Assembly (NCBI RefSeq): GCF_900155865.1
Contig: NZ_LT707006.1
Span: forward strand, 3,574,577 to 3,638,576
Direction of reading: 5' to 3'
Source of the DNA: Bacteroides bouchesdurhonensis
Lineage (GTDB): Bacteria; Bacteroidota; Bacteroidia; Bacteroidales; Bacteroidaceae
Length of the DNA: 64,000 nt
A program made the translations under genes and the position numbers. Positions within the stretch are counted from its first letter, which is position 1, and every line of letters starts with the position of its first letter. Shown piece after piece: positions 17,546-43,782 of this stretch. Under the pieces are notes generated by a model. That model had not been told where the DNA came from. It made no database searches and saw only the letters and a list, made by a program, of their open reading frames with translations.

Positions 17546-20500
17546 TATTTCTTATGTTTTAAAAGTTTCGACTTTGTTTTATATACCATTACAAAGAAGA
17601 AAGGTACAAGAATAATACCAAATACAATGGCAAATATCATTCCGAAAAACACACCTGTACCAATCGCCTGTCGACTGGCAGCACCGGGTCCGCTTGCCAA
17701 TACCATCGGAAGCATTCCAAGTACGAAAGCTAATGAAGTCATCAGAATCGGACGGAAACGTAAGCGAGCTGCATAGATGGCCGACTGTATCAAATCTTCT
17801 CCTTTATCTACCTGTACTTTGGCAAACTCCACAATTAAGATCGCATTTTTAGCCGCAAGTCCAATCAACATCACTAATCCTATCTGAAAATAGACATCGT
17901 TTTCCAAACCACAGACCCAAACTCCGAGATAAGCTCCTAACGCAGCTACCGGCAAAGATAGCAGTACTGCAATAGGTACCGTCCAACTTTCGTACTGTGC
18001 AGCGAGAAACAAGAAGACAAACAGAAAGACCAATGCCATAACCATACCAGTCTGACCTCCGGCTTTTTTTTCCTGATAAGACAATCCACTCCATTCCAAA
18101 CCGACATTATCAGGAAGATGATCACGAACAATCTGCTCCATTATTTCCATCGCTTGTCCCGAACTATATCCTTGTGCAGCAGCACCTCTAATAACAGCTG
18201 TAGTAAACATATTGAAACGCTTAATACTACCAGGCCCTGTGGTATACGATGCATTTCCTAAAGAAGTCAGTGGTACCATTGCTCCATTAGATGCTTTCAC
18301 AAAAAATAGATTGATATTATCTTTATGTTCACGATAAGGGGCTTCTGCCTGAATGTAGACTTTATATATACGGTTGAACATATTAAAGTCATTCACATAT
18401 ACCGAACCGGTATAAGCCTTCATCGTAGAAAATACATCAGCTAAAGGTACTCCCAACATTTTTACTTTATCCCGATCGACATCAAAGTAAAGTTGAGGAA
18501 TTTCCGATTGTAAAGAAGAAGACAATCCCGTCAGTTCTTTACGTTTAGAGGCATAATACATCAGAGTATCGGCCGCATCCACCAAATTATCGAAAGTAGC
18601 TTCACCACGAGCCTCCAATTGCATTTCGAACCCTCCGGAACTACCTAATCCCGGAATAACAGGAGGCGTAGACAAATATACCTTGCATTCCGGATATTCT
18701 TTAAGATGTTTCTCTACCGTATCCATAATCTTTTCAATAGTAGTACTTTTTCTATCCTCCCAAGGTTTTAGAATCACAGTTAATTCGGCACGCCCCTGAT
18801 TACTTCCCACACGTGGACTACTACCTGTTACATTCTGAATATATTCGATATATGGATTCTTTTCCAGATAGGCTATTGCACGATCAGTTACAGCACGAGT
18901 ACGTTCCAATGTAGCTCCTTCGGGCAATTCTAATTCTATCTTAAAATAACCCTGATCTTCTACTGGCAAAAAACTAGTAGGAATAATCCTGTGAATAAGT
19001 AGAATAGCAATCAACACCATTCCAAAAGCACTTAATATCCGACGTGGATGTTTGATTGTACGTGTCACAGCAGACACATATTTATTACTGCCAATTCCCA
19101 ACCATTCATTGATTTTTCTGAAAATGATATTTTTTTTCTTTCCATGATCCGGCTTCAAAATCAAAGAACACATAACGGGACTCAGAGTTAAAGCTACAAC
19201 AGTAGAAATAAGTACGGATACCACAATCGTCACTGTAAATTGACGATATAATTGTCCGGTAATTCCACTCAGGAAACTAACTGGAACAAATACCGCTGCC
19301 AACACCAGTGAAGTAGCAATCAATGCACTTGATAATCCGGTCATCGCTTTTTTGGTTGCTTCATAGGGACTCAATTTTTCCGTTTCCATGATATGTTCCA
19401 CCCCTTCTACCACAACAATCGCATCATCCACCACAATACCGATAGCAAGGATCAATCCTAGCAATGTCAAAATATTCAATGAAAAACCAAATATCAGCAT
19501 AAAACCAAAGGTACCGATTAATGAAATAGGTACTGCTACAACCGGAATCAGAGTTGCACGCCAACTCTGTAAAGACAGATATACGACCAATACTACCAAT
19601 ACTAATGCTTCAAAAAGGGTCTTGTATACTTCATGAATTGATTCTGATATATATGTCGTCATATCAAACGGAATCTCGTAACTTAATCCTTCGGGGAAAT
19701 TCTTACTGATTTCATCCATCGCTTCTTTCACATTCCGCGCAACTTCCATAGCATTCGCACCCGGTAACATATAAATTCCAAGTACTGCAGCATTCTCACC
19801 ATTAATACCACTTTCCGTACTATACGAAGAAGCTTCTAATGAGACATGTGCTACGTCTTTTAATCGGATAATAGAACCATTAGCATTGGCACGTACCACA
19901 ATATCTTCAAACTGTCCTACAGTAGAAAGACGTCCCTGAGTAGTAATAGGAATAGTTATATCCAAACCTTCTACAGGTTGTTGCCCCAATACACCGGCAG
20001 CAGATTCACGATTCTGGTCCTTCAAGGCGTTTTGTAAATCTTGTACAGTTAATCCAAAGTTTGCCAACTTATCAGGTTGAGCCCAGATTTGCATCGCATA
20101 ATAACGACTACCAATATTTGAAACACGCCCTACTCCAGGAACTCGACGAATTACATCAAGCACATTAATAGTCGCAAAGTTACTCAAATAAATTTCGTCA
20201 AACTTAGGATCGGTAGAAGTCAAACACAAAGTCATTAACTGGCTAGGTGCCTGTTTCTCCACAGAAATACCATTTTGGATAACTTCTGCCGGAAGACGGG
20301 ATTCTGCCAGTTTCACACGATTCTGTATTTCCACTGCAGCTAAATCCGGATCAGCGGAAACATCAAAAGTGACTGTTGCCGAAAACCCTCCGGAATTGGA
20401 ACTGCTAGATTCCATATAAAGCATACCAGGAGTACCATTGATTTCCTGCTCAATCGGAGTTGCCACAGCCTGCGAAACAGTCAACGCACTAGCACCTGGG

Positions 20501-20649
20501 TAAGAAGCACTAATCTTTACCACCGGCGGCGTAATCTGTGGATACTGATCCACCGGAAGCATGGTCAAACCAATGATTCCGACAATCACAATAACGATGG
20601 AAATTACTGCTGAAAATACGGGTCTATCTATAAAAAATGTAACTTTCAT
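17545..20649 (-). CDS. RND multidrug efflux permease (HAE-1, AcrB-like)
   Basis: Inner-membrane proton-driven pump, 1034 residues, close to AcrB's 1049. It shows N-terminal TM1 then DQYPQITPPVVKISASYPGA, two large periplasmic loops, and the TM4 proton-relay motif GIVVDDAIVVVEGVE with both aspartates; the late LIGLAAKNAILIVEFAK segment carries the TM10 lysine. These are the HAE-1 signatures. It lies 3 bases after the adaptor gene and overlaps the OprM-like gene by one base, so the three parts form one tripartite exporter. Substrates cannot be read from sequence; likely antibiotics, bile salts or detergents. Confidence 0.94.
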   Translation of the reverse strand: MKVTFFIDRPVFSAVISIVIVIVGIIGLTMLPVDQYPQITPPVVKISASYPGASALTVSQAVATPIEQEINGTPGMLYMESSSSNSGGFSATVTFDVSADPDLAAVEIQNRVKLAESRLPAEVIQNGISVEKQAPSQLMTLCLTSTDPKFDEIYLSNFATINVLDVIRRVPGVGRVSNIGSRYYAMQIWAQPDKLANFGLTVQDLQNALKDQNRESAAGVLGQQPVEGLDITIPITTQGRLSTVGQFEDIVVRANANGSIIRLKDVAHVSLEASSYSTESGINGENAAVLGIYMLPGANAMEVARNVKEAMDEISKNFPEGLSYEIPFDMTTYISESIHEVYKTLFEALVLVVLVVYLSLQSWRATLIPVVAVPISLIGTFGFMLIFGFSLNILTLLGLILAIGIVVDDAIVVVEGVEHIMETEKLSPYEATKKAMTGLSSALIATSLVLAAVFVPVSFLSGITGQLYRQFTVTIVVSVLISTVVALTLSPVMCSLILKPDHGKKKNIIFRKINEWLGIGSNKYVSAVTRTIKHPRRILSAFGMVLIAILLIHRIIPTSFLPVEDQGYFKIELELPEGATLERTRAVTDRAIAYLEKNPYIEYIQNVTGSSPRVGSNQGRAELTVILKPWEDRKSTTIEKIMDTVEKHLKEYPECKVYLSTPPVIPGLGSSGGFEMQLEARGEATFDNLVDAADTLMYYASKRKELTGLSSSLQSEIPQLYFDVDRDKVKMLGVPLADVFSTMKAYTGSVYVNDFNMFNRIYKVYIQAEAPYREHKDNINLFFVKASNGAMVPLTSLGNASYTTGPGSIKRFNMFTTAVIRGAAAQGYSSGQAMEIMEQIVRDHLPDNVGLEWSGLSYQEKKAGGQTGMVMALVFLFVFLFLAAQYESWTVPIAVLLSLPVAALGAYLGVWVCGLENDVYFQIGLVMLIGLAAKNAILIVEFAKVQVDKGEDLIQSAIYAARLRFRPILMTSLAFVLGMLPMVLASGPGAASRQAIGTGVFFGMIFAIVFGIILVPFFFVMVYKTKSKLLKHKK

Positions 20650-20652
20650 AAA

Positions 20653-21846
20653 TCATTCTTCTTTGGCATTAATCATTATTTCCTCTTCCGACTCACCGAA
20701 TCTTACTTTCATTCCAGGAGTTAACTTATGGAAACCTTCTACTACAACTAATTCGCCTACGGCCAGTCCTCTTTCTACTACCACTCTATTTCCTACTTCA
20801 GGACCTAATTCTATAAAACGCTTCTCCACCGTATCATCTTTACGCACCGTATAAATATATGCTCCGCCTTTCTCAATCGTAATAGCTTTCATCGGTACTA
20901 CAATTGCACCTTCACGTACATCTAACAAAAGTTTTACTTTGGTAAATTGTCCAGGTAATAATACTTGTTTAGGATTGGGCATTTCCGCACGTACAGAGAA
21001 GGTACCAGTCTGAGGATCTACCTGCGGTTCAGCAAAGTCTACAAATCCTTTATATGGATATACGGTATTATCAGCCAGAGTAATAGTAATATTTGGCTGC
21101 CAGGAACGAGTTGAATCCTTTTGTCCTAAATTAATATTACGTTCCTTACTTTTCAAATAGTCTAATGCTGTCATACTAAAGTCTACTAATACCGTGTCAC
21201 TCTTAACAATGGTAGCGAGCAAAGATTTACCTCCCGGTCCTACTAATGTTCCCAAATCCACATTTCTTTCACTAATATGACCGGATAACGGAGAACGAAC
21301 TACTGTATACCCTAATTCAAGTTCGGCCTGAGCCAAATCAGCCTCACTCATGGCTACCGTTGCAACAGCACTTTCATAGGCTGCTTCTGCATTGTCCAAG
21401 TCAAGCTGACTGGCTGCATTCTGTTCAACCAATGGACGAATACGTTTCAAATCACGTTCTGCTTTCAATGCCTGCGCTTCGTCTTTCTTCAACTGGGCCC
21501 TCGCTTTATCAGCTTTTGCACGATATTGATCTTGATTGATAACAAACAATACTTGGTTCTTATTCACGTAAGTACCTTCTGCAAAAAGCATATTCTCCAA
21601 ATACCCCTCCACACGAGCACGTACTTCTACAAATTGTTGGGCACGAATACGTCCTACATACTCTCCAAAGATTTCTACATCATCTTTTACAGCTGGCTCC
21701 AATATAACGGTTGGAATCTCCGGTTCTACTTTCTGAGGGCGGGTCAGTATCCAATATGTTGCTAATACGCAAACCATACAAATAATAGCAGCAATGGTTC
21801 TACTTCTACTCAGTTTCAACTCTCGTTTCGAAAAAAACAATCTCAT
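20653..21846 (-). CDS. RND efflux periplasmic adaptor (AcrA/MFP family)
   Basis: Membrane fusion protein joining the RND pump to the outer-membrane channel. The 397-residue protein has one N-terminal hydrophobic anchor (about 17-35), a barrel-sandwich/lipoyl hybrid domain (EVRARVEGYLENMLFAEGTYV), a coiled-coil hairpin rich in Ala, Lys and Glu (about 105-175), and beta-barrel and membrane-proximal domains with LPGQFTKVKLLL. No lipobox cysteine is obvious, so it is probably held by the uncleaved helix. It is the first gene of the operon; a pair of 12-base direct repeats about 130-160 bases upstream could bind a regulator. Confidence 0.92.
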   Translation of the reverse strand: MRLFFSKRELKLSRSRTIAAIICMVCVLATYWILTRPQKVEPEIPTVILEPAVKDDVEIFGEYVGRIRAQQFVEVRARVEGYLENMLFAEGTYVNKNQVLFVINQDQYRAKADKARAQLKKDEAQALKAERDLKRIRPLVEQNAASQLDLDNAEAAYESAVATVAMSEADLAQAELELGYTVVRSPLSGHISERNVDLGTLVGPGGKSLLATIVKSDTVLVDFSMTALDYLKSKERNINLGQKDSTRSWQPNITITLADNTVYPYKGFVDFAEPQVDPQTGTFSVRAEMPNPKQVLLPGQFTKVKLLLDVREGAIVVPMKAITIEKGGAYIYTVRKDDTVEKRFIELGPEVGNRVVVERGLAVGELVVVEGFHKLTPGMKVRFGESEEEIMINAKEE

Positions 21847-27745: not shown

Positions 27746-28459
27746 CTACACAAATTTTTCCCTTTTCTGTAAATTCAGCAACCCAATCATCGCCCAGATT
27801 ACACTAGCAGAAAAAAGGAATATACGATTTTTGATGAGGACACTTTCCCATATCATCGGATGAAAACCTTCAGGCATACTAAAAGGATTCAACATGACAT
27901 TCCAGAAAGAACGATCCATGTCATTCATTCTACTAACAAAAATTAAAACAATACCTATGATAATCATTAGTACGGCTGTCCCATTTCCACTGCGTGTAAT
28001 AGTAGAAAGCATAAAAGCCATATTTCCGAAGAAAAGCACCGGAAACATCAACTGTAAAGACATCTCAAGCGGATTGACCGGATACAATAAAATAATAGCC
28101 ACATATGAAAAGACAATTAAAATGACAAAAATAGCTACATATATCATAAGTAACCGCACCCCCCATACTTTATATTTATAATCCGGAATACCAAAAAGGA
28201 TTTCCAATATCCGACTATCTTCGTCATTTTGAATACCGAACACAGCCGGATAGAAAATAAGCAATATACATGGAAATAGAAGGATACCATAGATAAGTCC
28301 TTCATTAATTTCCTCTCGTTTCCATGCATTCTGGAACATAAAAAAGGCAAAAAAGCTAAATGCCGCCAAAAGAAACCAGATAAACTTCCCGGCAAATATA
28401 ATCTTCAGGTTATATTTGACAACTTTGGGCAACAACTGTATAATTTGATTCAATGTCAT
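27746..28459 (-). CDS. ABC-2-type transporter permease (small)
   Basis: A 237-residue integral membrane protein with six apparent transmembrane segments (roughly 25-45, 60-80, 105-135, 140-160, 165-190, 215-235), the layout of ABC-2 permeases such as those serving bacteriocin or copper (NosY-like) ABC systems. The motif NDEDSRILEILFGIP resembles the coupling region. I take ATG 28459, which has an AGAAGAGAAGG purine tract just upstream; an in-frame TTG at 28498 would overlap the preceding gene. It directly follows the RND-ABC fusion gene and is the natural membrane partner of the fused ATPase. The fifteen-base gap implies a shared transcript. Confidence 0.75.
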   Translation of the reverse strand: MTLNQIIQLLPKVVKYNLKIIFAGKFIWFLLAAFSFFAFFMFQNAWKREEINEGLIYGILLFPCILLIFYPAVFGIQNDEDSRILEILFGIPDYKYKVWGVRLLMIYVAIFVILIVFSYVAIILLYPVNPLEMSLQLMFPVLFFGNMAFMLSTITRSGNGTAVLMIIIGIVLIFVSRMNDMDRSFWNVMLNPFSMPEGFHPMIWESVLIKNRIFLFSASVIWAMIGLLNLQKREKFV

Positions 28460-28473
28460 ATCCTTCTCTTCTT

Positions 28474-31400
28474 TTAATTCATATTCTTCAATAGACAAAG
28501 ATAAGCGTCTTCCAAATTAGCTTCTACTTCCACAGCTCCCTCATAAGGTTGATCTATAGAAAGATAACGTACCAAAATAGAGTCATCTTGTTGAATATGA
28601 TGTATTACCAATGATTTATCCAGCACCTTTTCAAATTCTGTCTTATCAATACTAAACTGCCATACTTTGCCATTAGCCATTTCCACCATGTCCGAAGGAT
28701 TACCAAAGTACTTCAGTTCACCTTTATTGATCACCACCACCTGATTACAAGAACTGGATATATCTTCAATGATATGAGTAGAGAAAATAACCACACGGTC
28801 TTTACTCAACTCGACCAATAGATTACGGAAACGTATACGCTCACGCGGGTCCAACCCTGCCGTAGGCTCATCTACAACCAGAATACGTGGTAAATGGAGT
28901 AAGATAAGCGCAATACCGATACGTTGCTTCATACCGCCTGAGAATGAACCGATTTTTTCATCTTTCCGTTCATACATATGCACTGCTTTCAGAACATAAT
29001 CCAAACGTTCCTTACGTAACTTTCCATCAACAATGCCTTTCAATATAGCCTGATAATCAAGAAATTCCCACGATGTCATATTTTCGTAAGTACCAAATTC
29101 CTGGGGCAGAAATCCTATCAAGCTCTGCAATTCTTCCCTATAGATACGAGTATCAAGACCATTGATCCATATGCTTCCATAACTTTGTTCAAATATTCCA
29201 CAGATCACGCGCATCAGAGTTGACTTTCCGGCTCCATTAGGTCCCAACAAGCCGAACATACCTGTTTGAATCTCAAACGACACGCCACGCAATGCTTTGA
29301 AAGGTTTGCGCCGCTTTCCAATCAATGGAACACTTTTTACCATACGGAAATAGGAACGGCGAAGTCCTGCATAACGTCCGGACACGCGCTCAATATTTAT
29401 ATTATGATCATATAAATACTGAGAAGTAACATAAATGGCAATACCTACAAACCACAACAATCCGATCATGATCACCAGACCGTTATTTTCCATCTTCCTG
29501 AATAACTCAAACAATATTATAGGAGGAAGACTCCAGAATATCGCACGATTGAACATCTTCACCCATTTACTATTCTCGTAACGATAATACAAATAAGAAC
29601 GCACTTTCCTCCACAAATACAGAACAGATGCATAAATTGCAAAGGAGAATAAGAATATCCAGAGTCTGTTTTGAATAAAGAAATAAGTGAAATAAATGCC
29701 GAATACCAGAATGCCAAATTGCCACAATACATTCACAAAATCTTTCAATGAATGATATTCATTACTCAATCCCAAATGCTTACGTATTTGCAATCCACTA
29801 TGCCATTGACGGCTAAAACGCCCCGGCCAATCATATATTTTAACCAAATTCCTGACAGAGATATGTATCTCCTCACTCGGATCTATTACCTTCGATTTTG
29901 CTCGTCTAAGACTAGTCTGTGCAAAATAGGTCATGCCCGGTATACCTGCAATTAATGCTACCAGATAGATTGTTTGCCAGAGCATTCCATCGGCATACAA
30001 CCAAATACTAATTATACCGACTACAAAAAGAATAAGATGAGTGATCCATATCTTAAGGGATAATGAACGATACCACTGAAGCACATTCTCCAACCCCATA
30101 CAGACAGTAGGAATTAAAATCAACGTCAATAAAGCAGAGAAAAGAAGTCCGCCGATTACTGTAATCGCAAATGGAGCACCAATAGCTCCTGCATACTCTG
30201 TATCTCCCATAGCCAACGGAAGCATAGCAGCAATCGTTGTGATGGAGGTAATCAAAATCGGACGAATACGGGACATACCGGCAGTCATCAACGCTCTGTT
30301 ACGGCGATATCCCCTTGAGCGCAAAATATTAGCGTAATCGATCAATATAATTCCGTTATTAACAACCACTCCCAACAATATCAAAAACCCTGTCAATGTA
30401 TTCGCATTCATTAAGCTATTACCAGTAAGGAGCAGTGCCAATAAAGAACCGATAGCAGCCAATGGTATAGTAAAAAGCAATACAAAAGGCGTCACGACAG
30501 ACTCAAAAACAGAAGCAAGAATCATAAAGATCAGGATAAATGCTGCCAATATGAGAAACTTGAAATCCCCGAACTCATCCTCTTCATGAAATACTTGCAC
30601 AGCCACTCCGGCGGGAAGGTTATAGTTAGCAATCAACTGATCAATATCAGAACGGTATCCTTCCAGCAAATCCTTTGAAGACTGAACATCTCTTGGGAAA
30701 TTATAATATACCTCAATCTGCTTATCCTGATTGACACGTATAATCCGAGAACGTCCACGACCATAGTTAATGGTTGATATATCTTCCAAGTTATGTATAC
30801 CGCCATTGGCATTCTCTATTTGAACAGCCCGTAAATCATCTACTGTTTTTTCCTTTTGAGCTTTTTCTTTTGCCTCCTCTTCAGTTTCTTCTTCCGGTAT
30901 TTCGTCACGAATGATAATATCATACGTATCATCTCCTACCTTAAAAGTAGCTTCTGAAGAAAACTCACGATTGAGCGATGTCAATCCCGAAGTTATATTG
31001 TTGCGGTTAATATCATAAGTAGTCAGTAAAATCGGATCAAAATTCAGATTTATTTCCGGTTGCCGGGGAGTAAAAGATACGTGAGTACCTTGCACAAAAT
31101 CCTGTCCATCCAATAAATAACGTATCTCCTCAGCTACCATTTGCATCATCTCAAAATCAGCCCCTCGGATAACAACCCGTTCTCGATTATTTCCTATACC
31201 CAATAAACGCATAAAACCACCGAGACTACTCAGAGCAGAATTATCTCCCCCCCCTCCCATGGGATCAGAAACATATATCTCAGCTCCGTTTATGTTTGAG
31301 ACTTTACCCTGTACATCCGATTTGATATCCGCTATTTTCCGTTTAGCTATTTTCTGATAATCTTCTTGCAAAACAAGGGTGAGAGTTGCCTCTTTTTCCC

Positions 31401-33183
31401 GAACACGACAAATCAAATCTTTCTTTTCGGGTACATCAGCCAAACGTTCTTCCAATAATCGAACGATCTTATCTGTATTTTCAAGAGTACTTCCGGTATT
31501 CATCATTACACTAATATCGAACCGGTCAGATTCTACTTCTTTCATCTGCTGCACATTCAATGTCAGCGATAGTATGAGAGTTGTAAAAAGCAAAACTACA
31601 GATCCGAAAATAGTGACCCCGGGATTGCGCATGCAAGTCTTTAATAAAACCAGATAAATCTGTATCGGACGTTGCACGATCGATACCTTTTCATAAATGA
31701 TACTATTACCGTTTTTCTTTTTCAAGATCAGATAAGTAACCATGGGAATGAAAAGCAAAGCAACAAATAAAGAAACAGTCAAGGTAGAGATAATAGAAAC
31801 TCCGATATGATGGCCGATTAGCTTGATCAAGAAATTATCGGAAAAGACAAACGGCAAAAATACAGTAATTGTGGTCAGCGTAGCTGCCACAATAGAACGC
31901 CATACCTCTTTGGTTCCTTGAGTAACCGAACGTTCGGGTGTACAACCACTCCCTGACAAACGATAAATATTTTCAAGCACCACAACACTGTTATCCAACA
32001 ACATTCCGATCGCCAGTGCCATTCCTACCAATGTAAGACTATTGATAGTAATTCCTGAAGCATAAAAGAAGTTGAAAGCCGTATAAACAGAGATAGGAAT
32101 AGAAAGTGCAATAAAAAATACCAACCGTATATTTTTCAAGAAAAGCCAAAGGATAAACACAGCTAACAAACCACCCACTAACGCCAAGTTAATGATTTGA
32201 TTGATATTATCCTCCATAGTTTCCGCTTTATTCTCCTGCACTACTATTTCCAGATCAAGTGGAGTCAACTTCTCATTCAGCGTATCCACCACATCGGAAA
32301 CACGATGTGAAAGTTCAATCAGGTTAGCTTGCGAATCATTAATCAAGGCAACCGAAACAGCTTCCTTCCCATTAACACGACTATAAGTAGTTTCTTCCTT
32401 CAAATCAAAAAATACCGTAGCCACATCTTTCAGTAAAATAGGTCCCGGTGCCACAACAATATTCTCCAAATCAGCCACTTCCGTATACATAGCATTGACA
32501 TGGACGAAATTCTTACTATCCGGTTCATTAGCAAAACCTACAAATGTTTTTTCCTGTGTGTTTTGCGAAAGAAGACCGCTTATTTTGGATGGCGTGAGGT
32601 TCAAGGCCTTACATGTTTCCGGATTGAGACGCACCTCAATAGCCTTTTGCCGTCCTCCATATACATTGACAGAAGCTACCCCATCTATATTCTCCAGGTC
32701 AGGACGAATATGATCATCCACTAAATTTCTGACGCGGTCGGTTCCACCGGAACCGCGCACCTGAAGTACCATAAAGTTATTACTCATTTGAGCAATATCA
32801 ACTTTCTGTACCTGCACGGTAAAGCCACTAGGAAACGAAGCGGCAATCTCGTTCACCTTCTCCTGTAGTTTAAGAGAAGTCATCTTAAAGTTGATATTCT
32901 TCTTAAAATCAATTTGTATGCTCGACTGTCTCCTGTCAATCCTAGATTGCAGCTTGTCTACTCCCCCTATCGCACTGACGGCCCCTTCGAGTGGAATGAC
33001 GATTTCCGACTCTACATACGAAGGATCCATATCTTGCTGTGACGAAACTTGAATAAACAATACCGGAAGTTCCGCATTAGGCAGCAACTCCACCGGAAGC
33101 TGTTTATACGACACATAACCTAAAAGGCTAAGTGCAATAAACAGCATACAAATCGTAATTCTCCTATTTAGTAAAAAGTTCAT
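28474..33183 (-). CDS. RND efflux permease fused to an ABC ATPase domain
   Basis: A single 1569-residue frame. Residues 1 to about 1030 are an RND permease: N-terminal TM1, PNAELPVLFIQVSS, TM4 motif GMLLDNSVVVLENIY (one acidic residue instead of the usual two) and GVVVNNGIILIDYANI near the TM10 region. Residues about 1040-1260 contain several extra hydrophobic segments. Residues about 1285-1569 are a complete ABC ATPase with Walker A GPNGAGKS (1314-1321), signature SFSGGMKQR, Walker B ILVVDEPTAGLD and a switch histidine in STHII. The ATPase closely resembles the stand-alone ATPase encoded at the start of the operon. No frameshift or stop divides the parts. The gene starts 2 bases after the other RND gene ends. 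Confidence 0.9.
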   Translation of the reverse strand: MNFLLNRRITICMLFIALSLLGYVSYKQLPVELLPNAELPVLFIQVSSQQDMDPSYVESEIVIPLEGAVSAIGGVDKLQSRIDRRQSSIQIDFKKNINFKMTSLKLQEKVNEIAASFPSGFTVQVQKVDIAQMSNNFMVLQVRGSGGTDRVRNLVDDHIRPDLENIDGVASVNVYGGRQKAIEVRLNPETCKALNLTPSKISGLLSQNTQEKTFVGFANEPDSKNFVHVNAMYTEVADLENIVVAPGPILLKDVATVFFDLKEETTYSRVNGKEAVSVALINDSQANLIELSHRVSDVVDTLNEKLTPLDLEIVVQENKAETMEDNINQIINLALVGGLLAVFILWLFLKNIRLVFFIALSIPISVYTAFNFFYASGITINSLTLVGMALAIGMLLDNSVVVLENIYRLSGSGCTPERSVTQGTKEVWRSIVAATLTTITVFLPFVFSDNFLIKLIGHHIGVSIISTLTVSLFVALLFIPMVTYLILKKKNGNSIIYEKVSIVQRPIQIYLVLLKTCMRNPGVTIFGSVVLLFTTLILSLTLNVQQMKEVESDRFDISVMMNTGSTLENTDKIVRLLEERLADVPEKKDLICRVREKEATLTLVLQEDYQKIAKRKIADIKSDVQGKVSNINGAEIYVSDPMGGGGDNSALSSLGGFMRLLGIGNNRERVVIRGADFEMMQMVAEEIRYLLDGQDFVQGTHVSFTPRQPEINLNFDPILLTTYDINRNNITSGLTSLNREFSSEATFKVGDDTYDIIIRDEIPEEETEEEAKEKAQKEKTVDDLRAVQIENANGGIHNLEDISTINYGRGRSRIIRVNQDKQIEVYYNFPRDVQSSKDLLEGYRSDIDQLIANYNLPAGVAVQVFHEEDEFGDFKFLILAAFILIFMILASVFESVVTPFVLLFTIPLAAIGSLLALLLTGNSLMNANTLTGFLILLGVVVNNGIILIDYANILRSRGYRRNRALMTAGMSRIRPILITSITTIAAMLPLAMGDTEYAGAIGAPFAITVIGGLLFSALLTLILIPTVCMGLENVLQWYRSLSLKIWITHLILFVVGIISIWLYADGMLWQTIYLVALIAGIPGMTYFAQTSLRRAKSKVIDPSEEIHISVRNLVKIYDWPGRFSRQWHSGLQIRKHLGLSNEYHSLKDFVNVLWQFGILVFGIYFTYFFIQNRLWIFLFSFAIYASVLYLWRKVRSYLYYRYENSKWVKMFNRAIFWSLPPIILFELFRKMENNGLVIMIGLLWFVGIAIYVTSQYLYDHNINIERVSGRYAGLRRSYFRMVKSVPLIGKRRKPFKALRGVSFEIQTGMFGLLGPNGAGKSTLMRVICGIFEQSYGSIWINGLDTRIYREELQSLIGFLPQEFGTYENMTSWEFLDYQAILKGIVDGKLRKERLDYVLKAVHMYERKDEKIGSFSGGMKQRIGIALILLHLPRILVVDEPTAGLDPRERIRFRNLLVELSKDRVVIFSTHIIEDISSSCNQVVVINKGELKYFGNPSDMVEMANGKVWQFSIDKTEFEKVLDKSLVIHHIQQDDSILVRYLSIDQPYEGAVEVEANLEDAYLCLLKNMN

Positions 33184-36344: not shown

Positions 36345-37406
36345 TTACTTTTGGATTTTCACTTTTGCGTCTTCTTTCAATGTCTCAAAACCTCTCACTA
36401 CCAGATTATCGTTCACATTAAGACCGGACAAAACTTCAATGTTATATTCATCCTCCAAACCGGTTTCCAGATTACGTATCTTTGCAGTATTCTTTTCAAC
36501 TACATATACATATTTACGACGACGATTAGACAAAATGACGTCTTTGGAAATAATAATAGAACTATCAGCTCTATCCACCACAATGTCTGCTTTGGCAAAC
36601 ATCCCCGGTCGCAGTTTCAGCTGATCATTATCAATCAGGACTTTTCCCTTAAAAGTACGCGTCTCTGTACTGATTGCCGGGGATAATTCGCTGATTTTCC
36701 CTCTCAATGTGTCACCAGGTATAGTGTAATGAGTGATATACACCGGTTGTGATTCCTTGACATAACGAATACTGCTTTCCGGCAAATTAATATCCATGTA
36801 CATCTTGTCATAAGCCATCAGACTTACCATTGGTTTACCTTGCTCGACTTTACTGTCGGATGTATAATGAGGTAAATCAACAATAACTCCATCAAATGGA
36901 GCTATTACTTTCATCTTTTCCAGATTAAGCTGAGCATTATCATAATCATAGCGAGCACTGGTCACTTTTACTTCTGAATTCCGCATTTCCCCCACAGTTA
37001 CTCCCCCCTTTTCATAAAGAGCCTTCTGCTTGGTTTGCTCTTGCTCTGCAATCTCAAGACTTAACTTTTTAGCATCAATAGCAATTCCATTTTCATACTC
37101 TCTATCTTCCAATTTAATAATCAGTTGTCCTTTACTTACCCGGTCTCCCATTTTAAAGGGTTTTCCAGTTCTCGGATTGTTCTGAAGTTTATAACTCCCA
37201 CTCATTTCTGAGTTCAAAGACACCCCATAAGTAGGCTGTACAGTCCCAGTTGTATTTATTAATTTACTGATCGATCCTTTTTTAAGTTCGATTACAGATA
37301 CAGGAGTAGCAATGTCATTAGGTGCATTTTGCGGTCTTTGGCCACAGCTCATTAATGATATAGTTACTAATAAAGTAGATGCAATTAAAATGTGATACTG
37401 TTTCAT
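36345..37406 (-). CDS. Efflux RND periplasmic adaptor lipoprotein (MFP)
   Basis: A 353-residue adaptor with a clear lipobox (SLMSCGQ, cysteine 21), so it is anchored in the inner membrane facing the periplasm. It has the half-lipoyl motif FKMGDRVSKGQLIIKLED, a coiled-coil hairpin rich in Lys and Glu (about 100-155), the second half-lipoyl region VIAPFDGVIVDLPHYT and the beta-barrel motif LRPGMFAKADIVVD. It is the only adaptor in the operon, so it must serve both RND chains. It lies 7 bases after the TolC-like gene. Confidence 0.9.
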   Translation of the reverse strand: MKQYHILIASTLLVTISLMSCGQRPQNAPNDIATPVSVIELKKGSISKLINTTGTVQPTYGVSLNSEMSGSYKLQNNPRTGKPFKMGDRVSKGQLIIKLEDREYENGIAIDAKKLSLEIAEQEQTKQKALYEKGGVTVGEMRNSEVKVTSARYDYDNAQLNLEKMKVIAPFDGVIVDLPHYTSDSKVEQGKPMVSLMAYDKMYMDINLPESSIRYVKESQPVYITHYTIPGDTLRGKISELSPAISTETRTFKGKVLIDNDQLKLRPGMFAKADIVVDRADSSIIISKDVILSNRRRKYVYVVEKNTAKIRNLETGLEDEYNIEVLSGLNVNDNLVVRGFETLKEDAKVKIQK

Positions 37407-37413
37407 GGCATGC

Positions 37414-38910
37414 TTATTTTTTATCGATCATATCTTTCATTGGAACAATAGGACTATTTGTATCAAAGTCATATAATGAAAGAATTTTGAGGTTAAGTAA
37501 TTCTATTCTGTAATTAATCAATGATTGCGTATAAGCGATTTTTTGATTTGAAAGCTGAGTTTGGAATTGACTCATTTCCATACCGGTAATATCGCCCTCC
37601 CGATAACGAGTTTGATTCAAATCATATGTCAATTGAGCGTTCTTCACATTCTGCTCAGCAATCTTAATCTGTGTCCTTAGATTCTCAAGACTACGCCATA
37701 CTTGACGGATATTCAGTTCAATATCCACTTTCTCTTCATGAAATTCAAGCTCATTTATCTGCTGTGCTATTTGTTGCGCTTTGATTCTAGCTCTTTTTTC
37801 CCCCCAATCAAAGATAGGAACAGAAAAACTGACTGAGATACGTGGATTTTGTGTCGGATTATCAAACATCTTATTCAAATTCTTATTATCACCGGTCAAT
37901 CCGAAAGATAAAGACACATCTCCTTTAAATTCATTCATGGCCTTTGTCTTAATCATATCAAATTCCAGTTCCTTAGTTTTAATTTCACGCTGACGAAGTT
38001 CAAGACGTGACCCAAGTCCATGCGTAATAGCTTGCTCTAAATCCACTTGGATCGGTTTAATATCGACTTCAGCAAACACAAGGATATCTTCATCCAGATT
38101 CATTCCCAGTGTCTGTTTGAGCCTGTCTTTTGCATTCTCCAGATTAACCATTCTTTCGTCTACAGACGAACGTGCTGTGGCGAGATTCAATTCAGCTTGA
38201 TAGAGTTCATCTTTGGCAGCTAAGTCAGCTTCTACTTTATTTTTCTTTATTTCATAACTCTGCTGGACATTGACCAATTCTTCACGACTAATTTCCAGAT
38301 TACTTTGCGCCATATAAACAGCATAAAACTGATCAGTAATACTTTTCTCCGTATTCAGACGTTGCAAAGCATAACTGATATTGGCATTTTCATAATCATA
38401 CTCTATTTGCTTCAATTCCATTTTTCGTTTGTTGTAAGTGAAAATAGGTTGGGTTAATTGAAGACGAAGATTATTATTGAATACTTGGCTGTTTCTCTCA
38501 TCATCACCCGAGATTGAGTTATTTTTCTGCCACCCAAAGGTATTAATTAAAGAAACGGTACCGTCGGTCCATAAAATAGGTTGCTCCACCCGGAAGGTTC
38601 CACTTGTATTAAATGTTTCTCCGGTATACCAACTAGAATTAAAAGAGTCAAAGGATCTGTCCTTACTATAATCCATCGGATTCAAATCCAATGAAAACCG
38701 TGATTTTAAAGAAGCCTTCTGTGCCAACAAATTCTGTTTATATCTCTCCAAATTCATGTAAGAACTACGTAGAGAAGGACTATTCTCTTGCGCAATATCC
38801 ATTGCCTTATCAATCGTTAATGGTATTTGTCCTTGCGAAGACAAGGTAAGTCCCATAAAGGCTACGACTGTCAATAGCATCCTTTTTAATAGTTGTAAGT
38901 CACTTTGCAT
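37414..38910 (-). CDS. TolC-family outer-membrane channel protein
   Basis: A 498-residue outer-membrane efflux duct. It has a signal peptide (about 1-27, ending in SQG-Q) without a lipobox, then two OEP repeats with long coiled-coil helices (for example EISREELVNVQQSYEIKKNKVEADLAAKDEL) and FSVPIFDWGEKRARIKAQQ in the second repeat. It differs from the OprM-like lipoprotein at 16-17.5 kb by lacking the lipid anchor. Its position between the permease/M1-like gene and the adaptor marks it as the outer-membrane exit for this operon's transport machine. Confidence 0.9.
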   Translation of the reverse strand: MQSDLQLLKRMLLTVVAFMGLTLSSQGQIPLTIDKAMDIAQENSPSLRSSYMNLERYKQNLLAQKASLKSRFSLDLNPMDYSKDRSFDSFNSSWYTGETFNTSGTFRVEQPILWTDGTVSLINTFGWQKNNSISGDDERNSQVFNNNLRLQLTQPIFTYNKRKMELKQIEYDYENANISYALQRLNTEKSITDQFYAVYMAQSNLEISREELVNVQQSYEIKKNKVEADLAAKDELYQAELNLATARSSVDERMVNLENAKDRLKQTLGMNLDEDILVFAEVDIKPIQVDLEQAITHGLGSRLELRQREIKTKELEFDMIKTKAMNEFKGDVSLSFGLTGDNKNLNKMFDNPTQNPRISVSFSVPIFDWGEKRARIKAQQIAQQINELEFHEEKVDIELNIRQVWRSLENLRTQIKIAEQNVKNAQLTYDLNQTRYREGDITGMEMSQFQTQLSNQKIAYTQSLINYRIELLNLKILSLYDFDTNSPIVPMKDMIDKK

Positions 38911-38932: not shown

Positions 38933-41900
38933 TTATCGTTTCACTATTTTAACCGCATCGGCTGTAACAGATCTCAATTTACATTCATCTGTCAGCACGA
39001 CACGAATCGTATCGGAATTAAAGAAGTAAGTCCCGACTTGCTCCCATCCTTCATTAGCTTTTCTCATGTTAATATAAGCATCTTCCACATCATCGTCGTA
39101 CATCACTTTAAAGTGATATTCCCCTCGTGCACGATTGTTCCATCGCAATTCATTATCTTTATATACATGGTAAAACAAATCATACTGGCCAGATTCCGGT
39201 ACAGGAACTTTCCATGTAGCAGTCTGACTACCATCCCCACTCTTAATCACATATGCTGATCGAATATATTTTCCATAATATCCTGCATTGGTAGTAGCCG
39301 TCCATTGCAAAGGCGGACGCCACGGAGGCACACCGGCATATTTAAAGGAAGTATCCTCCACTTCATCTAACCATTTTGGTAAAAGTCCTACAACCGCAGG
39401 AGTGGAAAGAACGAAAAGTGTAGAATCCTCATTATCCACAATGACTTCTCCCGGCAAATCAAATGAAGATTCCGGTAATACATAGATACTATCTTTAACT
39501 AATTTATTTTTTTCCTGTTTGAAATTACCAATAGACTGTTCAATTACATTTGGAAGATTTCCAGAGACCATCGTATTGATTTCAACATTACGGATTTGTT
39601 CTTCCCAAACCGACACAAACTCTTTGCTCGTATGAGCAGGCATCCTTACTTTCGTACTAGCTCTGGGATCGTCTAAAGCCTGGTTCCACCAATTATTTTG
39701 ACGAATCTCGATATGAATAATTCCGTCATAATCAGAGTTATTACTAATCATCATTCTTAATACAAATTTATCCTCTCCACCCCTATCCACAACTTTAGTC
39801 AATTCCGGAGTTCCAATAGAGTAAAAAGGAAGAGGGGTAGTTTCTTCCCATTCTTTCAAAGATGAACGAATATCCGTTTTGCTTATACTTCCCAATGTAT
39901 CAAGCATATTTTCAAATTTTATATTCAGAAAAGTATTACGTTTCAACAACGAATACAGTGAATCTCTGAAAGCCTCTACACCTATATTTATTTCAGGCAC
40001 GGCAAAAAGACGACTTGCCTCAAGACCAACAATATTATTTTGCAAATCGCGTAGCTCCACATCAGCTAACAGCTCTTTGAATGTATGCTTCTCCAACAAT
40101 AAAATGGCCTTTTCATTATTACTAATGCCATTAATCTCGCGTTCCCATCCTCTATTCTCCGATTTTTTTTGCAAATATAATTCGATCACGCGATTAGCCA
40201 CCGGCCACTCCGATGAGAATATATTATAACGAAAATTGTAAATCTGCGGAAAAAGGAAATAAGGATTTGCCTCAGCTGAAAAATTGGTTCGTCCTCTACT
40301 ACCTAATGAAAAGTTGTAATTGCCTTCTGTTCGCATAAAAGTCCAGGCAAAATTATTAAATGTACGCATCTGTGCCTCTACCACAGTAATTTCACGGTCT
40401 CCATGTTTTGACCAACGAATTTGATCTTTTACTTCCCTCTTAACATCCAAATTTAATAAGGATCCTTTTTCAGGAAATAATATCATTTCCGGTTGCACAG
40501 TTTCCTGCGCTTGCGACCACGCACGTTCATAACTGTCAAATTGTACTGGTACTTCTATAATAGAGAATCGTTTGAAAGGATATTCCAATTTATAATCTCG
40601 TTCTAACTGTTCTTTTACATTACGTATAAGCCAAGGAATAGTATCTTGGATGGAATCAAAAACTGCTGTGAAATAATCATGATCTTCTAAATGCCAAATG
40701 CTACATAAGATACTATCCGAATAGACACTTTTCTGCTGGTAGTTTCCTATAATCAATGAAATCGTTTGAGAAGGAAAGTCTCCCTTAAATGTATAAACTC
40801 CCTGTTCATCACTCTTTCCTTCACCCTGAGATAGAGGGACCAATCCTGGAAGTGGTTTAACTTTTAAATTATAATTGCTAAAATAAGTTTGTTGCCAATC
40901 GGGAGTTTTATCACTATAACTCGTTCCTGCACGAGGATACCAATATGTTTCAGGTGTCAGTAACAAATAATTATTTGTCTGAAAACAGTATTGCTTATCT
41001 ATATTAAACAAAAACCTCTTTCTAGGGGCCTGCAACATTTCTGGTGGAATATCCAAATAGCAAAACGATTTGTCTATTTGTCCGTCATATTCGAATGTCA
41101 CAGAAACTGTATCTCCTTTTGCTACATTGGTTCCGAAATCCACTAATACAATTTGCTTGTCACGTTTGAATTTAAGCGGGTGTTCTCCGGAATGAACCGA
41201 ATGAATGTTTAAACCGGGATTCAAACAAAACGTAAATACGTTTGAAGATTCCAAGGCAGTTCCTATCATTGTAACCTCCGAAGAGAAGTTATCTGGGTGT
41301 TGTTCTACCGAAAGATCGTATTGATATATAGCCATTTTTGGAGTAGCCACATACTGATTATTGATATTGGTATACACCGCCCGTATATCACTTTGATATA
41401 AAATGGAATGTATATGCCAATAACCCGATGTAAAACTTAACAAAATTACACCGAAAGCAAGAAACATCCATGAAATATTACTCCGGGAAGAGTTTGGCAA
41501 ACGGCGGAATAGACATATTGTAAAAAAGACAAATGCCAATCCGGCAAATAAATAGATAGCCCGATGATTCAAAATTACTCCCAAATTGGAAAATCCTACA
41601 ATAGTAGATTTCACCAAAGGAAGACTATAAGCCATATAATCAAAAAGGTAATAGAACTTATCTTCAATATAGAAAACAGTCAATCCGATATACCCTAATA
41701 ATATTACGAACGTTAGTGCCTGGTTTTTCAAAACCAACATTAGAAAAATAGACAATCCAATAATAAAAATAAGAGTAGGAACACTGATTAGCAGAAAATA
41801 AATGATGTAAGACATCCAATCCACCTCTCCTGATGTCAGATTAAATGCTGCCGTAATACCAATAACAATCAAGTTCAGGATCAGAAACACACGTAGGTTT

Positions 41901-42241
41901 CCCCAAATCTTACCAATAACATACTCAGCATTACTTAACGGACGGACATAAAAAACTTCCGATGTATCCAACTTTTTGTCCCTTTTCAAAAAATCAGAAG
42001 CCAAAAAGATAGCTATGACAGCCTGTCCTGTATTTAATAACAATAAGATTAAATATGGAATATTTGACGGAATAGACGTAGCAATCCATACCCTTCCCAT
42101 ATCTTCCGACACGAATAACCCGAAATTTAAAAAAGCAACGATACTTACAGCAAGCACTGTAAACACCCTAAAGAACCAACTTCTTATTAATAATTTGCTT
42201 TCATATTTTGCTACTGATTGTATATTAGAGATAAAAGTCAT
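38933..42241 (-). CDS. ABC permease fused to a peptidase-M1-like and golvesin-like periplasmic region
   Basis: A 1102-residue protein. The first 270 residues have about seven transmembrane helices and an ABC-2 permease arrangement, including SDFLKRDKKLDTSEVFYVRPLSNAEYVIGK near 82-110. The large periplasmic part (about 290-830) resembles the non-catalytic and gluzincin regions of M1 peptidases (ETYWYPRAG, TISLIIGNYQQ, YPFKRFSIIEVP), but I find no HExxH zinc motif, so it is probably not a peptidase. The C-terminal 130 residues (YAGVPPWRP onward) resemble a golvesin/xanthan-lyase accessory domain with strand pattern GSQTATWKVPVPESGQYDLFYHVY. It is 15 bases after the stand-alone ATPase and is that ATPase's obvious membrane partner. 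Confidence 0.8.
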   Translation of the reverse strand: MTFISNIQSVAKYESKLLIRSWFFRVFTVLAVSIVAFLNFGLFVSEDMGRVWIATSIPSNIPYLILLLLNTGQAVIAIFLASDFLKRDKKLDTSEVFYVRPLSNAEYVIGKIWGNLRVFLILNLIVIGITAAFNLTSGEVDWMSYIIYFLLISVPTLIFIIGLSIFLMLVLKNQALTFVILLGYIGLTVFYIEDKFYYLFDYMAYSLPLVKSTIVGFSNLGVILNHRAIYLFAGLAFVFFTICLFRRLPNSSRSNISWMFLAFGVILLSFTSGYWHIHSILYQSDIRAVYTNINNQYVATPKMAIYQYDLSVEQHPDNFSSEVTMIGTALESSNVFTFCLNPGLNIHSVHSGEHPLKFKRDKQIVLVDFGTNVAKGDTVSVTFEYDGQIDKSFCYLDIPPEMLQAPRKRFLFNIDKQYCFQTNNYLLLTPETYWYPRAGTSYSDKTPDWQQTYFSNYNLKVKPLPGLVPLSQGEGKSDEQGVYTFKGDFPSQTISLIIGNYQQKSVYSDSILCSIWHLEDHDYFTAVFDSIQDTIPWLIRNVKEQLERDYKLEYPFKRFSIIEVPVQFDSYERAWSQAQETVQPEMILFPEKGSLLNLDVKREVKDQIRWSKHGDREITVVEAQMRTFNNFAWTFMRTEGNYNFSLGSRGRTNFSAEANPYFLFPQIYNFRYNIFSSEWPVANRVIELYLQKKSENRGWEREINGISNNEKAILLLEKHTFKELLADVELRDLQNNIVGLEASRLFAVPEINIGVEAFRDSLYSLLKRNTFLNIKFENMLDTLGSISKTDIRSSLKEWEETTPLPFYSIGTPELTKVVDRGGEDKFVLRMMISNNSDYDGIIHIEIRQNNWWNQALDDPRASTKVRMPAHTSKEFVSVWEEQIRNVEINTMVSGNLPNVIEQSIGNFKQEKNKLVKDSIYVLPESSFDLPGEVIVDNEDSTLFVLSTPAVVGLLPKWLDEVEDTSFKYAGVPPWRPPLQWTATTNAGYYGKYIRSAYVIKSGDGSQTATWKVPVPESGQYDLFYHVYKDNELRWNNRARGEYHFKVMYDDDVEDAYINMRKANEGWEQVGTYFFNSDTIRVVLTDECKLRSVTADAVKIVKR

Positions 42242-42256
42242 AACAGCATATCATGT

Positions 42257-43150
42257 TTAGTCGTTTGTCCAAAGGTTTAATTTATTCTCCATATAATACA
42301 CATAAGCATGTTCCAAATTTGGAGGAAACGGCTCCACTTCATATCCTTCTACTTTATCAGCAACTACCTGTACCTCCCATCCCGTGCCCGATGGAATAGT
42401 AGAAATTACCGGATATTTTTTATCAATCTCATGCAACTGGTCCCCCTTAGCTTTAATCCTCCATACCTTACCCTCTGCTATCTTCAGCATTTCTTGCGGA
42501 GAACCATTAAAAGAAACTTGTCCACGATTCATCAACGCCATATTATTACAAGTACTTGAAATATCCCCTACAATATGGGTTGATAAGATAATAGTCACAT
42601 CATTCTCACTGACTTCAGAAAGAAGGTTACGGAAACGGATACGTTCTTCCGGGTCAAGTCCGGTCGTAGGCTCATCAACGATGATAACTTTAGGATGATG
42701 TATCAATGCTTGTGCAATTCCCAGGCGTCGTTTCATACCTCCCGATAGTTTATTGGCATATCGTTCGCGGACATCGAACAATCCTACATTCTCAAGCATT
42801 TCATCCACAGCCTGTTTTCTCTGTCTGCTATGGGTCATTCCGGACAGGCGTGCCGCATAATCCAGAAATTCATACGTCTTATATTTAGCAAAAAAACGAA
42901 AATCCTGAGGAAGATACCCTAAAATACCACGGATCTCTTTCCTGTCTTTCATTAAATCATATCCACAAATTTCAACTTGTCCGGAAGTAGGTTCCATGAG
43001 AGCTACAAGGATACGCATTAAAGTCGATTTGCCGGCACCGTTAGGTCCTAATAATCCGAACATCCCTGAAGGGATTTCCAAATTCACATCTTTCAATGCA
43101 TGGTTTCCGTTAGGATATATTTTATTGAGGTTTTTAATAGTAATACTCAT
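42257..43150 (-). CDS. ABC transporter ATP-binding protein
   Basis: A 297-residue cytosolic ATPase that would drive the adjacent ABC-2 permease. Walker A is GPNGAGKST near 36-44, the Q-loop lies in LPQDFRFF, the signature is KLSGGMKRR, Walker B is VIIVDEPTTGLD and the switch histidine is in STHIVGD. The C-terminal 80 residues form an extension (GKVWRIKAKGDQLHEI) like those of DrrA/CcmA-type exporters. The closest relative in this window is the ATPase at the end of the RND-ABC fusion, down to the same tail (GKVWQFSIDK). It is the first gene of the seven-gene operon and probably carries the promoter just upstream. Confidence 0.92.
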   Translation of the reverse strand: MSITIKNLNKIYPNGNHALKDVNLEIPSGMFGLLGPNGAGKSTLMRILVALMEPTSGQVEICGYDLMKDRKEIRGILGYLPQDFRFFAKYKTYEFLDYAARLSGMTHSRQRKQAVDEMLENVGLFDVRERYANKLSGGMKRRLGIAQALIHHPKVIIVDEPTTGLDPEERIRFRNLLSEVSENDVTIILSTHIVGDISSTCNNMALMNRGQVSFNGSPQEMLKIAEGKVWRIKAKGDQLHEIDKKYPVISTIPSGTGWEVQVVADKVEGYEVEPFPPNLEHAYVYYMENKLNLWTND

Positions 43151-43662: not shown

Positions 43663-43782
43663 ATAGCCGTTGTCGCGTGTGGACTTGCCGTTGGAAATGA
43701 CGATCAATGCCCGCTTGCCCGGCATGGGTTGCACATGAAGGTTGTTCAACTGTCCTGTCCCGAAAAGAATGCGGGTAGGAAT
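43663..43782 (-). pseudogene. Iron-containing alcohol dehydrogenase, N-terminal fragment
   Basis: The minus strand encodes IPTRILFGTGQLNNL, VQPMPGKRALIVIS and NGKSTRDNGY in one frame, the N-terminal NAD-binding start of an iron-dependent alcohol dehydrogenase. A TAG codon lies four codons upstream of the match and there is no ATG, so both the start and everything after about residue 45 are missing. It overlaps, antisense, the 5' edge of the AraC remnant, which suggests a deletion joined two divergent neighbours. Confidence 0.6.

Follow-up and report, generated by a model that had tools for sequence, protein, structure and literature searches.

A conserved RND permease–ABC ATPase fusion, with a probably split ATPase fold, in a seven-gene export operon of Bacteroidota

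In the 64,000-nucleotide stretch of Bacteroides bouchesdurhonensis DNA analysed here (the window), seven genes lie in the order stand-alone ATPase, large permease, TolC, adaptor, RND, RND–ABC and small permease (Table 1). RND pumps are driven by ions, normally protons, and ABC pumps by ATP. The initial annotation had described one uninterrupted polypeptide of 1569 residues uniting an RND pump with an ABC ATPase, and this holds: the frame, on the minus strand (a detail omitted at the time), contains no internal stop, the plus strand of the same stretch contains many, and Pfam places ACR_tran on residues 2-1027 (profile 3-1016; 524 bits, E 8.5e-157) and ABC_tran on residues 1298-1442 (E 8.9e-26). 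Also present are the RND motif GMLLDNSVVVLENIY (residues 393-407) and the hydrophobic segments said to join the two halves, which the AF2 model predicts as helices. With an RND profile covering two thirds of its length, such a protein is easily filed as a plain RND pump.

Table 1. Genes of the operon and parts of the fused gene, in window coordinates
Feature	Position	Strand	Basis
RND–ABC fusion gene, 1569 aa	28474..33183	minus	one open frame; single frame kept in 55/58 loci
RND permease part, residues 1-1027	30103..33183	minus	Pfam ACR_tran 2-1027; sister to second RND of unfused tandem pairs
Two extra membrane helices after RND part, residues 1043-1096	29896..30057	minus	AF2 model helices 19-39, 43-72; two hydrophobic peaks in 53/55 sequences
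ATPase first strand and A-loop, residues 1105-1118 (EIHISVRNLVKIYD)	29830..29871	minus	invariant residues; sliding-peptide test 55/55; model strand 1108-1117
Membrane insert within ATPase, residues 1146-1259, four predicted helices	29407..29748	minus	AF2 model helices 122-145, 149-177, 182-206, 210-235
Remaining ATPase, residues 1296-1569, all nucleotide-binding motifs	28477..29298	minus	Pfam ABC_tran; invariant motifs
Small ABC-2-type permease, from likely ATG	27746..28459	minus	AF2 model; matches to NosY, ABCG, PmtCD; same strand 56/58; junction sequence
First RND permease of tandem pair, 1036 aa	33186..36296	minus	Pfam ACR_tran; relay D-N-N-R 50/50
Periplasmic adaptor (HlyD/CusB type)	36345..37406	minus	Pfam
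TolC-type outer-membrane channel	37414..38910	minus	Pfam OEP
Large permease: weak N-terminal ABC-2 match, golvesin C-terminal domain	38933..42241	minus	Pfam
Stand-alone ABC ATPase, first gene of operon	42257..43150	minus	Pfam ABC_tran; own clade

The Walker A, signature, Walker B and switch histidine noticed earlier near the C-terminus are all there: GPNGAGKST (1314-1322), Q1361, SGGMKQR (1415-1421), the Walker B E1439 and H1470 are invariant in a 41-row alignment. Judged by its sequence, the fused ATPase carries every motif needed for hydrolysis. Its fold is very probably split, the first strand and A-loop preceding a membrane insert, usually of four helices, and the rest, Walker A included, resuming at about residue 1296. 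The A-loop would be set apart from the remainder by some 175 residues that include about four membrane helices, leaving the nucleotide-binding domain non-contiguous. Several observations point to this arrangement. V1114, K1115 and Y1117 are invariant, and a sliding-peptide test with a profile built from 27 stand-alone ATPases selects residues 1105-1118 as the first strand in all 55 fused sequences, gaining 11.9-17.3 bits against 3.1-11.8 bits for the runner-up. The AF2 model, a monomer of moderate quality (pLDDT 78.4, pTM 0.58), places a strand at 1108-1117, and all 50 structural alignments listed begin at model residue 79-84, usually at the very start of a stand-alone ATPase. NINIERVSGRY, a region directly preceding the Walker A half, was rejected as an alternative first strand, being weaker in the same test in 55 of 55 sequences (at most 11.8 bits) and non-strand in the model. 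Two loci (L096, L097) retain the first strand with a shorter insert (105 aa vs 161-221 aa elsewhere). By hydropathy, 39 of the 55 sequences display a pattern of 2+4 helices, the window protein itself only 2+3. The NCBIfam cut-offs for GldA and DrrA ATPases lie well above the scores of the fused protein (178.2 of 402.6 and 166 of 312.45 bits, respectively). The division of the ATPase by membrane helices had been missed in the initial annotation.

The fusion is real, and it is old and conserved. A frame of at least 1480 aa is found in 55 of 58 loci, which represent 57 distinct places as L100 and L024 are one contig; the other three are a fragment beginning at a contig end (L046) and two assemblies broken into several frames (L047, L048). 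The supposition that every homologue might be split into separate genes is thereby contradicted, although the RND half does have unfused relatives. A linker profile detected the fusion in 6 of 395 genomes of the phylum and in 40 of 295 genomes of the order, 32 of the latter in frames of 1515-1640 aa and eight truncated by contig ends. Across both sets the profile is confined to fusion genes, apart from a chance-like match of 50 residues with stops (G128, among the phylum genomes), and no naturally split linker or split fused ATPase was seen in them. The linker had no match in plasmids. A scan of 84,980 species genomes returned 54 loci, 44 with the fusion, one with the RND part only and nine with the ATPase part only; all 44 fusion loci are titled as Bacteroidota, and since exact short peptides were matched, distant fusions may escape. 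Prolixibacter bellariivorans and Maribellus maritimus are among the carriers it named. A sequencing or assembly artefact, for which the broken frames of L047 and L048 might speak, is ruled out by these homologues and its probability is negligible, the frame being intact in independent genomes of many families, named isolates among them. Neither an RND–ABC fusion nor a membrane insert inside an ABC ATPase was found described among the open-licence papers listed by the searches.

The neighbouring genes are conserved as well, and many Bacteroidota carry this seven-gene export operon with the RND–ABC fusion. Of the 58 loci, 56 have the small permease and 55 the first RND near the fused gene and on its strand; all seven genes are seen in 27. 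Counted by strict adjacency, the figures are 47 of 55 for the small permease and 47 of 52 for the first RND, some of the misses being frame overlaps larger than allowed. The small permease is missing in L055, where all six partners of the fused gene are lacking from the 10 kb upstream and the 6.5 kb downstream of it, and L041 stops at a contig end. The order of the operon, tandem RND genes with one adaptor, corresponds to a two-permease arrangement like that of MdtBC. In its middle part, the large permease is probably M1-like but degenerate.

No Pfam family matches the small permease at E 0.01; the earlier assignment of this protein to the ABC-2 type is borne out by the predicted fold (AF2; pLDDT 79, pTM 0.76). 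All 50 structural alignments listed for it are with ABC-2-type transporters or ABCA/ABCG/ABCH relatives (Z 12.4-15.0), NosY having the top Z of 15.0, and Foldseek E-values are poor (best 0.03). Its mechanical frame, 27746-28498, opens with a TTG within the fused gene. The ABC-2 fold and the same-strand position near the fused gene make a pairing plausible, and we consider the small permease a probable partner of the fused ATPase; the stand-alone ATPase of the operon could serve it too.

The initial annotation had further proposed that the fused ATPase arose as a copy of the operon's stand-alone one, to be checked by a tree of both. Built here, the tree places them in separate clades, fused, operon stand-alone and M1-permease ATPases forming three (two rows labelled NBD1, from L047 and L048, are pieces of broken fused genes and were read as fused). 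Copying is not supported: the branching order of the clades is left undecided by the AU test (alternatives p 0.525 and 0.565), which the data do not separate. Identity of the fused domain is 44% with the operon ATPase and 46% and 44% with stand-alone ATPases of other systems, which score against it as well as or better than the operon ATPase does. The matching GKVW-like tails, cited as a sign of copying, do not mark it: among the 12 other stand-alone ATPases nearest to the fused domain, five also contain GKVW or GKIW. Copying from the operon's own ATPase is thus neither shown nor excluded.

The best solved relatives of the RND part are MdtB and MdtF, and the relay positions were assigned through the window's ordinary RND, viewed against these two. 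Both RND proteins of the operon retain Asp407 and Arg971. At the position of AcrB Asp408, asparagine stands in 50 of 50 first RND proteins, and asparagine (43) or threonine (12) in the 55 fused ones; at that of Lys940, all 50 first and all 55 fused proteins have asparagine. The first RND is accordingly D-N-N-R in all 50 rows, and of the set Asp407/Asp408/Lys940 the fused RND keeps only Asp407. Among 30 RND proteins from 19 operon-free genomes, 27 have Asp-Asp with Lys or Arg and two have D-N-N-R. The fused protein falls short of the NCBIfam cut-offs for RND_permease_1 (444.6/1250 bits), RND_permease_2 (313.2/1250) and CzcA (260/701).

Unfused relatives provide a natural control for the fusion event. 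Other Bacteroidota carry RND tandem pairs (for example L192, L220-L226, L228 and L229) whose second member groups with the fused RND as its sister (97/92). Their frames stop right after the last RND helix, and near them there is no ATPase, no linker and no small permease. All 20 RND proteins of ten such pairs have the D-N-N-R set, so that the relay change predates the fusion. These are minimum counts whose independence is incomplete, at most two candidates having been scored per genome with a profile that included one unfused row (L192); L227 was left out because its pair was masked by an overlap filter. Relay loss was rejected as proof of ATP drive, the same residues occurring in these 20 proteins.

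Judged by sequence, the components are a tandem RND pair, an adaptor and a TolC channel, the second RND being joined covalently, through two extra helices, to the ABC ATPase. In our view the best explanation, to which we give about even chances, is a hybrid trans-envelope exporter, encoded by the operon and combining an ABC module with the tandem RND. How the parts would work together is, taken as a whole, a more tentative proposal: an ATP-driven ABC module may load the RND exporter. Two fused subunits would supply two ATPase domains, dimerising beneath two paired copies of the small permease. Hydrolysis of ATP there would move a substrate, perhaps lipid-like or peptide-like, out of the cytoplasm or the inner leaflet; the tethered RND pair would receive it in its periplasmic porter and send it onward through the adaptor and TolC. 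MdtBC is described as functioning as a B2C heterotrimer (PMC7015380). A comparable trimer of two fused subunits and one plain RND would contain exactly two ATPase domains, the number required for an ABC dimer. A second ABC module within this system may consist of the large permease and the stand-alone ATPase.

The ATPase dimer might instead, via the membrane insert, power or gate the RND cycle itself, replacing or adding to the proton relay. Asp408 and Lys940 are missing from both RND proteins, D408N and K940A are reported to abolish proton transport and efflux in AcrB (PMC4359379; PMC5546932), and most RND proteins of operon-free genomes keep the Asp-Asp pair with Lys or Arg; yet D-N-N-R recurs in unfused pairs without an ATPase nearby and in two other RND proteins, and the retained Asp407 leaves proton or other ion coupling possible. 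We consider this rather unlikely. Also unlikely is its more specific form, a chimeric primary-active RND of two RND–ABC chains and a plain RND in which the ABC dimer drives the cycle through the insert and the small permease; its ATP drive is argued from the disappearance of the Asp408-Lys940 relay.

The two halves could otherwise merely share a chain, the fusion setting stoichiometry or location and each half having its own substrate. Unfused tandem RND pumps without an ATPase imply that the RND half is able to work alone, and the fused ATPase is a member of an ordinary ATPase family. A mere tether would, however, oddly leave no naturally split linker or ATPase in the genomes searched, and the operon stays together; we accord this possibility a low probability. 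The ATPase and small permease could also act as a switch rather than a pump, as proposed for FtsEX, ATP binding shifting the insert and governing whether the RND complex assembles or opens. One chain holds the ATPase, the RND and the extra membrane helices, and signalling by an ABC pair of the FtsEX type is known (PMC11627006), but the best matches listed for the small permease have the ABC-2 transporter fold, not that of FtsX/MacB, and we find a switch improbable.

A conserved protein uniting RND and ABC parts would allow direct study of cooperation between the two engines and of possible coupling of an RND cycle to ATP. A membrane domain between A-loop and Walker A would be a new geometry linking ATP to membrane movement.

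Among known systems, HAE-type RND permeases (AcrB, MdtB/MdtC) share the full-length ACR_tran profile and, as in MdtABC, a tandem pair with an adaptor, whereas here an ATPase is fused, Asp408 and Lys940 are replaced and scores remain far under the NCBIfam subfamily cut-offs. The unfused tandem systems of Bacteroidota have the sister second RND and the same relay residues but none of the ABC-related additions. The ABC-2/peptidase M1 permease systems of Bacteroidota (L106-L109), with large permeases of about 1200 aa bearing M1 and weak ABC-2 matches, provide one of the two ATPase clades nearest the fused ATPase; they differ as two-gene systems without RND, their ATPase contiguous and stand-alone. 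The ABC-2 exporters NosFY, PmtCD and ABCG resemble the small permease in its predicted fold; their identity to it is mostly 7-17%, and here the candidate partner ATPase sits on an RND protein. MacB and VarDEF likewise place an ABC transporter within a tripartite pump with MFP and TolC, MacB being described as having, from the N-terminus, an ATPase, four helices and the MacB periplasmic domain (PMC5595328). The fused protein does not follow that layout: MacB has its own periplasmic domain and no RND permease, whereas here the permease is an RND protein and a split ATPase lies at its C-terminus.

The RND-ABC fusion lies in an operon between a first RND gene and a small permease gene. Pfam assigns residues 2-1027 of the fused protein to ACR_tran and residues 1298-1442 to ABC_tran; MdtB and MdtF are the nearest solved structures to the RND part by sequence, and every ATPase motif is invariant in a 41-row alignment. 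The divergent AraC-type gene is a possible local regulator of the operon. A separate 969-aa protein shares its golvesin C-terminal domain with the C-terminal end of the large permease. Elsewhere in the same genome (locus L110, contig C1 1160001-1180000), an RND pump cluster adjoins repeated copies and fragments of ABC ATPase genes, and an interrupting frame separates similar ATPase copies.

Features of the window; the operon runs 5' to 3' from the stand-alone ATPase to the small permease, in the order listed
Feature	Position	Strand	Remarks
Stand-alone ATPase	43150-42257	minus	first in operon
Large permease	42241-38933	minus	1102 aa; weak ABC-2 match, golvesin C-terminal domain
TolC-type channel	38910-37414	minus	
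Adaptor	37406-36345	minus	
First RND	36296-33186	minus	
RND-ABC fusion	33183-28474	minus	one open frame, 1569 codons
Small permease	28459-27746	minus	start if ATG used
AraC-type regulator	43742-44377	plus	upstream of operon, divergent
Golvesin-domain protein	49744-52653	plus	969 aa; weak fn3 match
Ordinary RND tripartite set	16166-21846	minus	TolC, RND with Asp-Asp-Lys-Arg relay, adaptor

The ATPase of the fusion is predicted to be split by a membrane insert. Ordinary ABC ATPases start with an N-terminal strand and an aromatic A-loop residue, and the stand-alone ATPases here have starting patterns like SITIKNLNKIYPNG. No such pattern directly precedes the Walker A half of the fused protein; EIHISVRNLVKIYD instead occupies residues 1105-1118 of the linker, where V1114, K1115 and Y1117 are invariant, the remainder of the linker being poorly conserved. 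In a sliding test, each 16-residue linker piece was joined to the front of the ATPase core, and the product was scored with a profile built exclusively from 27 stand-alone ATPases. The top-scoring piece ended exactly at the A-loop tyrosine in all 55 sequences, which are mutually related and not 55 independent trials, and gained 11.9-17.3 bits against 3.1-11.8 for the runner-up (minimum margin 3.2).

An AlphaFold2 model of residues 1025-1569 (pLDDT 78.4, pTM 0.58) places a strand at 1108-1117, no further strand before 1301, and four long helices at 1146-1259, followed by the remainder of the ATPase. Among the 50 structural matches listed, of which the best reaches Z 23.7 over 266 residues, all alignments begin at model residue 79-84, most often pairing these positions with the N-terminal residues of a stand-alone ATPase. 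Counted from the A-loop tyrosine up to the edge of the ATPase core, the insert spans 161-221 residues in 53 of the 55 sequences; in L096:5337-9944 and L097:5535-10079 it is 105 residues long, the first strand being kept and about two helices lost. Since hydropathy predicts two helices before the strand and four after it in 39 of the 55 sequences and other counts in 16 (two and three in the window protein), the precise number of helices is taken from the model. The fused proteins of L098 and L099 contain additional low-complexity stretches in the loop that links the A-loop to the insert's first helix, a loop that thus tolerates insertions.

A careful ATPase tree, using 56 of 115 rows, places the fused ATPases (100/99), the stand-alone ATPases of the operon (99/96) and those of two-gene M1-type permease systems (100/99) in three separate clades. 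The best tree pairs fused and M1-type ATPases, not firmly (86/83), and pairing fused with operon ATPases (p 0.525) or operon with M1-type ATPases (p 0.565) fits equally well. Copying of the fused ATPase from the stand-alone one, as proposed in the initial annotation, is therefore possible and unsupported.

A scan of 84,980 species, with one genome per species, found both halves at 44 loci, all titled Bacteroidota and 47-98% identical in the best segment. Genome searches added 14, giving 58 loci (L100 duplicates L024). A single frame of at least 1480 aa is present in 55 of them, including L041, which continues past the end of its contig; L046 is a fragment at a contig end, and L047 and L048 are broken, the former in most operon genes as well. 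The small permease lies near the fused gene on the same strand at 56 of the 58 loci, the first RND at 55 and the full seven-gene set at 27, a count limited by the short length of many contigs or retrieved stretches. At L055:9977-14689 the fused gene lacks every one of the six partners over 10 kb upstream and 6.5 kb downstream, which may reflect relocation or a chimeric contig. Under even sampling, the linker occurs in 6 of 395 phylum genomes and 40 of 295 order genomes (its frames measure 1515-1640 aa in 32 of the 40 and are shorter, meeting contig ends, in the other eight), and the fusion is rare in its own genus (2 of 37 genomes); the hybrid system is therefore old and patchy. A seventh phylum match, in genome G128, covers 50 residues in a frame with stops.

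Proton-relay residues, in the order of AcrB Asp407, Asp408, Lys940 and Arg971, were mapped on the window's ordinary RND as Asp-Asp-Lys-Arg; some 6 kb separate its tripartite set from the end of the hybrid operon. The first RND reads D-N-N-R in all 50 rows, and the fused RND D-(N or T)-N-R in 55 rows (N in 43, T in 12). PMC4359379 describes the AcrB variants D408N and K940A as devoid of both proton-transport and efflux activity. Among 30 RND proteins from 19 operon-free genomes, 24 read DDKR, three DDRR, two DNNR and one DDNR; in a subset of five other RND frames from the own genome, four combine Asp-Asp with either Lys or Arg and one combines D-G with Leu. A 1444-aa RND frame there with D-G and Leu (L006, C1 4739323-4742436) is probably another fusion.

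An RND-half profile of 20 rows, one of them unfused (L192), was run on 385 phylum genomes and at 748 bits or more recovered the fused gene in six genomes and, in 39, an unfused gene of 1009-1088 aa; below these, the scores drop to 660 bits. Ten of the 11 unfused loci opened hold a tandem RND pair, that of L227 being masked by an overlap filter; nine of these ten have an adaptor match, and none has an ATPase match among the frames listed. All 20 RND proteins of these pairs read D-N-N-R, their second RND is sister to the fused RND (bootstrap 97, SH-aLRT 92), and grouping their first RND with that of the operon is not rejected (AU p 0.344). The probable ancestor was therefore a tandem RND pump whose relay was already altered, the ATPase having been joined to its second RND once.

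The small permease matches no Pfam family; its model (pLDDT 79, pTM 0.76) resembles the ABC-2-type transporters NosY, ABCG, ABCA and PmtCD, with Z 12.4-15.0 in the 50 structural matches listed and weak Foldseek E-values (best 0.03). In the best-supported mechanism, an ABC-2 module formed by the fused ATPases and the small permease would load the tandem RND exporter, both using one common adaptor and channel; the ABC-2 partnership, a two-plus-one trimer and substrate hand-over are putative. The gene content, the fusion and the motifs are established, and the split fold is supported by prediction. ATP may instead drive the RND cycle itself, a reading weakened by the same relay residues in the unfused relatives. 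No published description of the hybrid system was found in open-licence literature: both parts belong to known superfamilies, but the way of joining and cutting them was not found described there.
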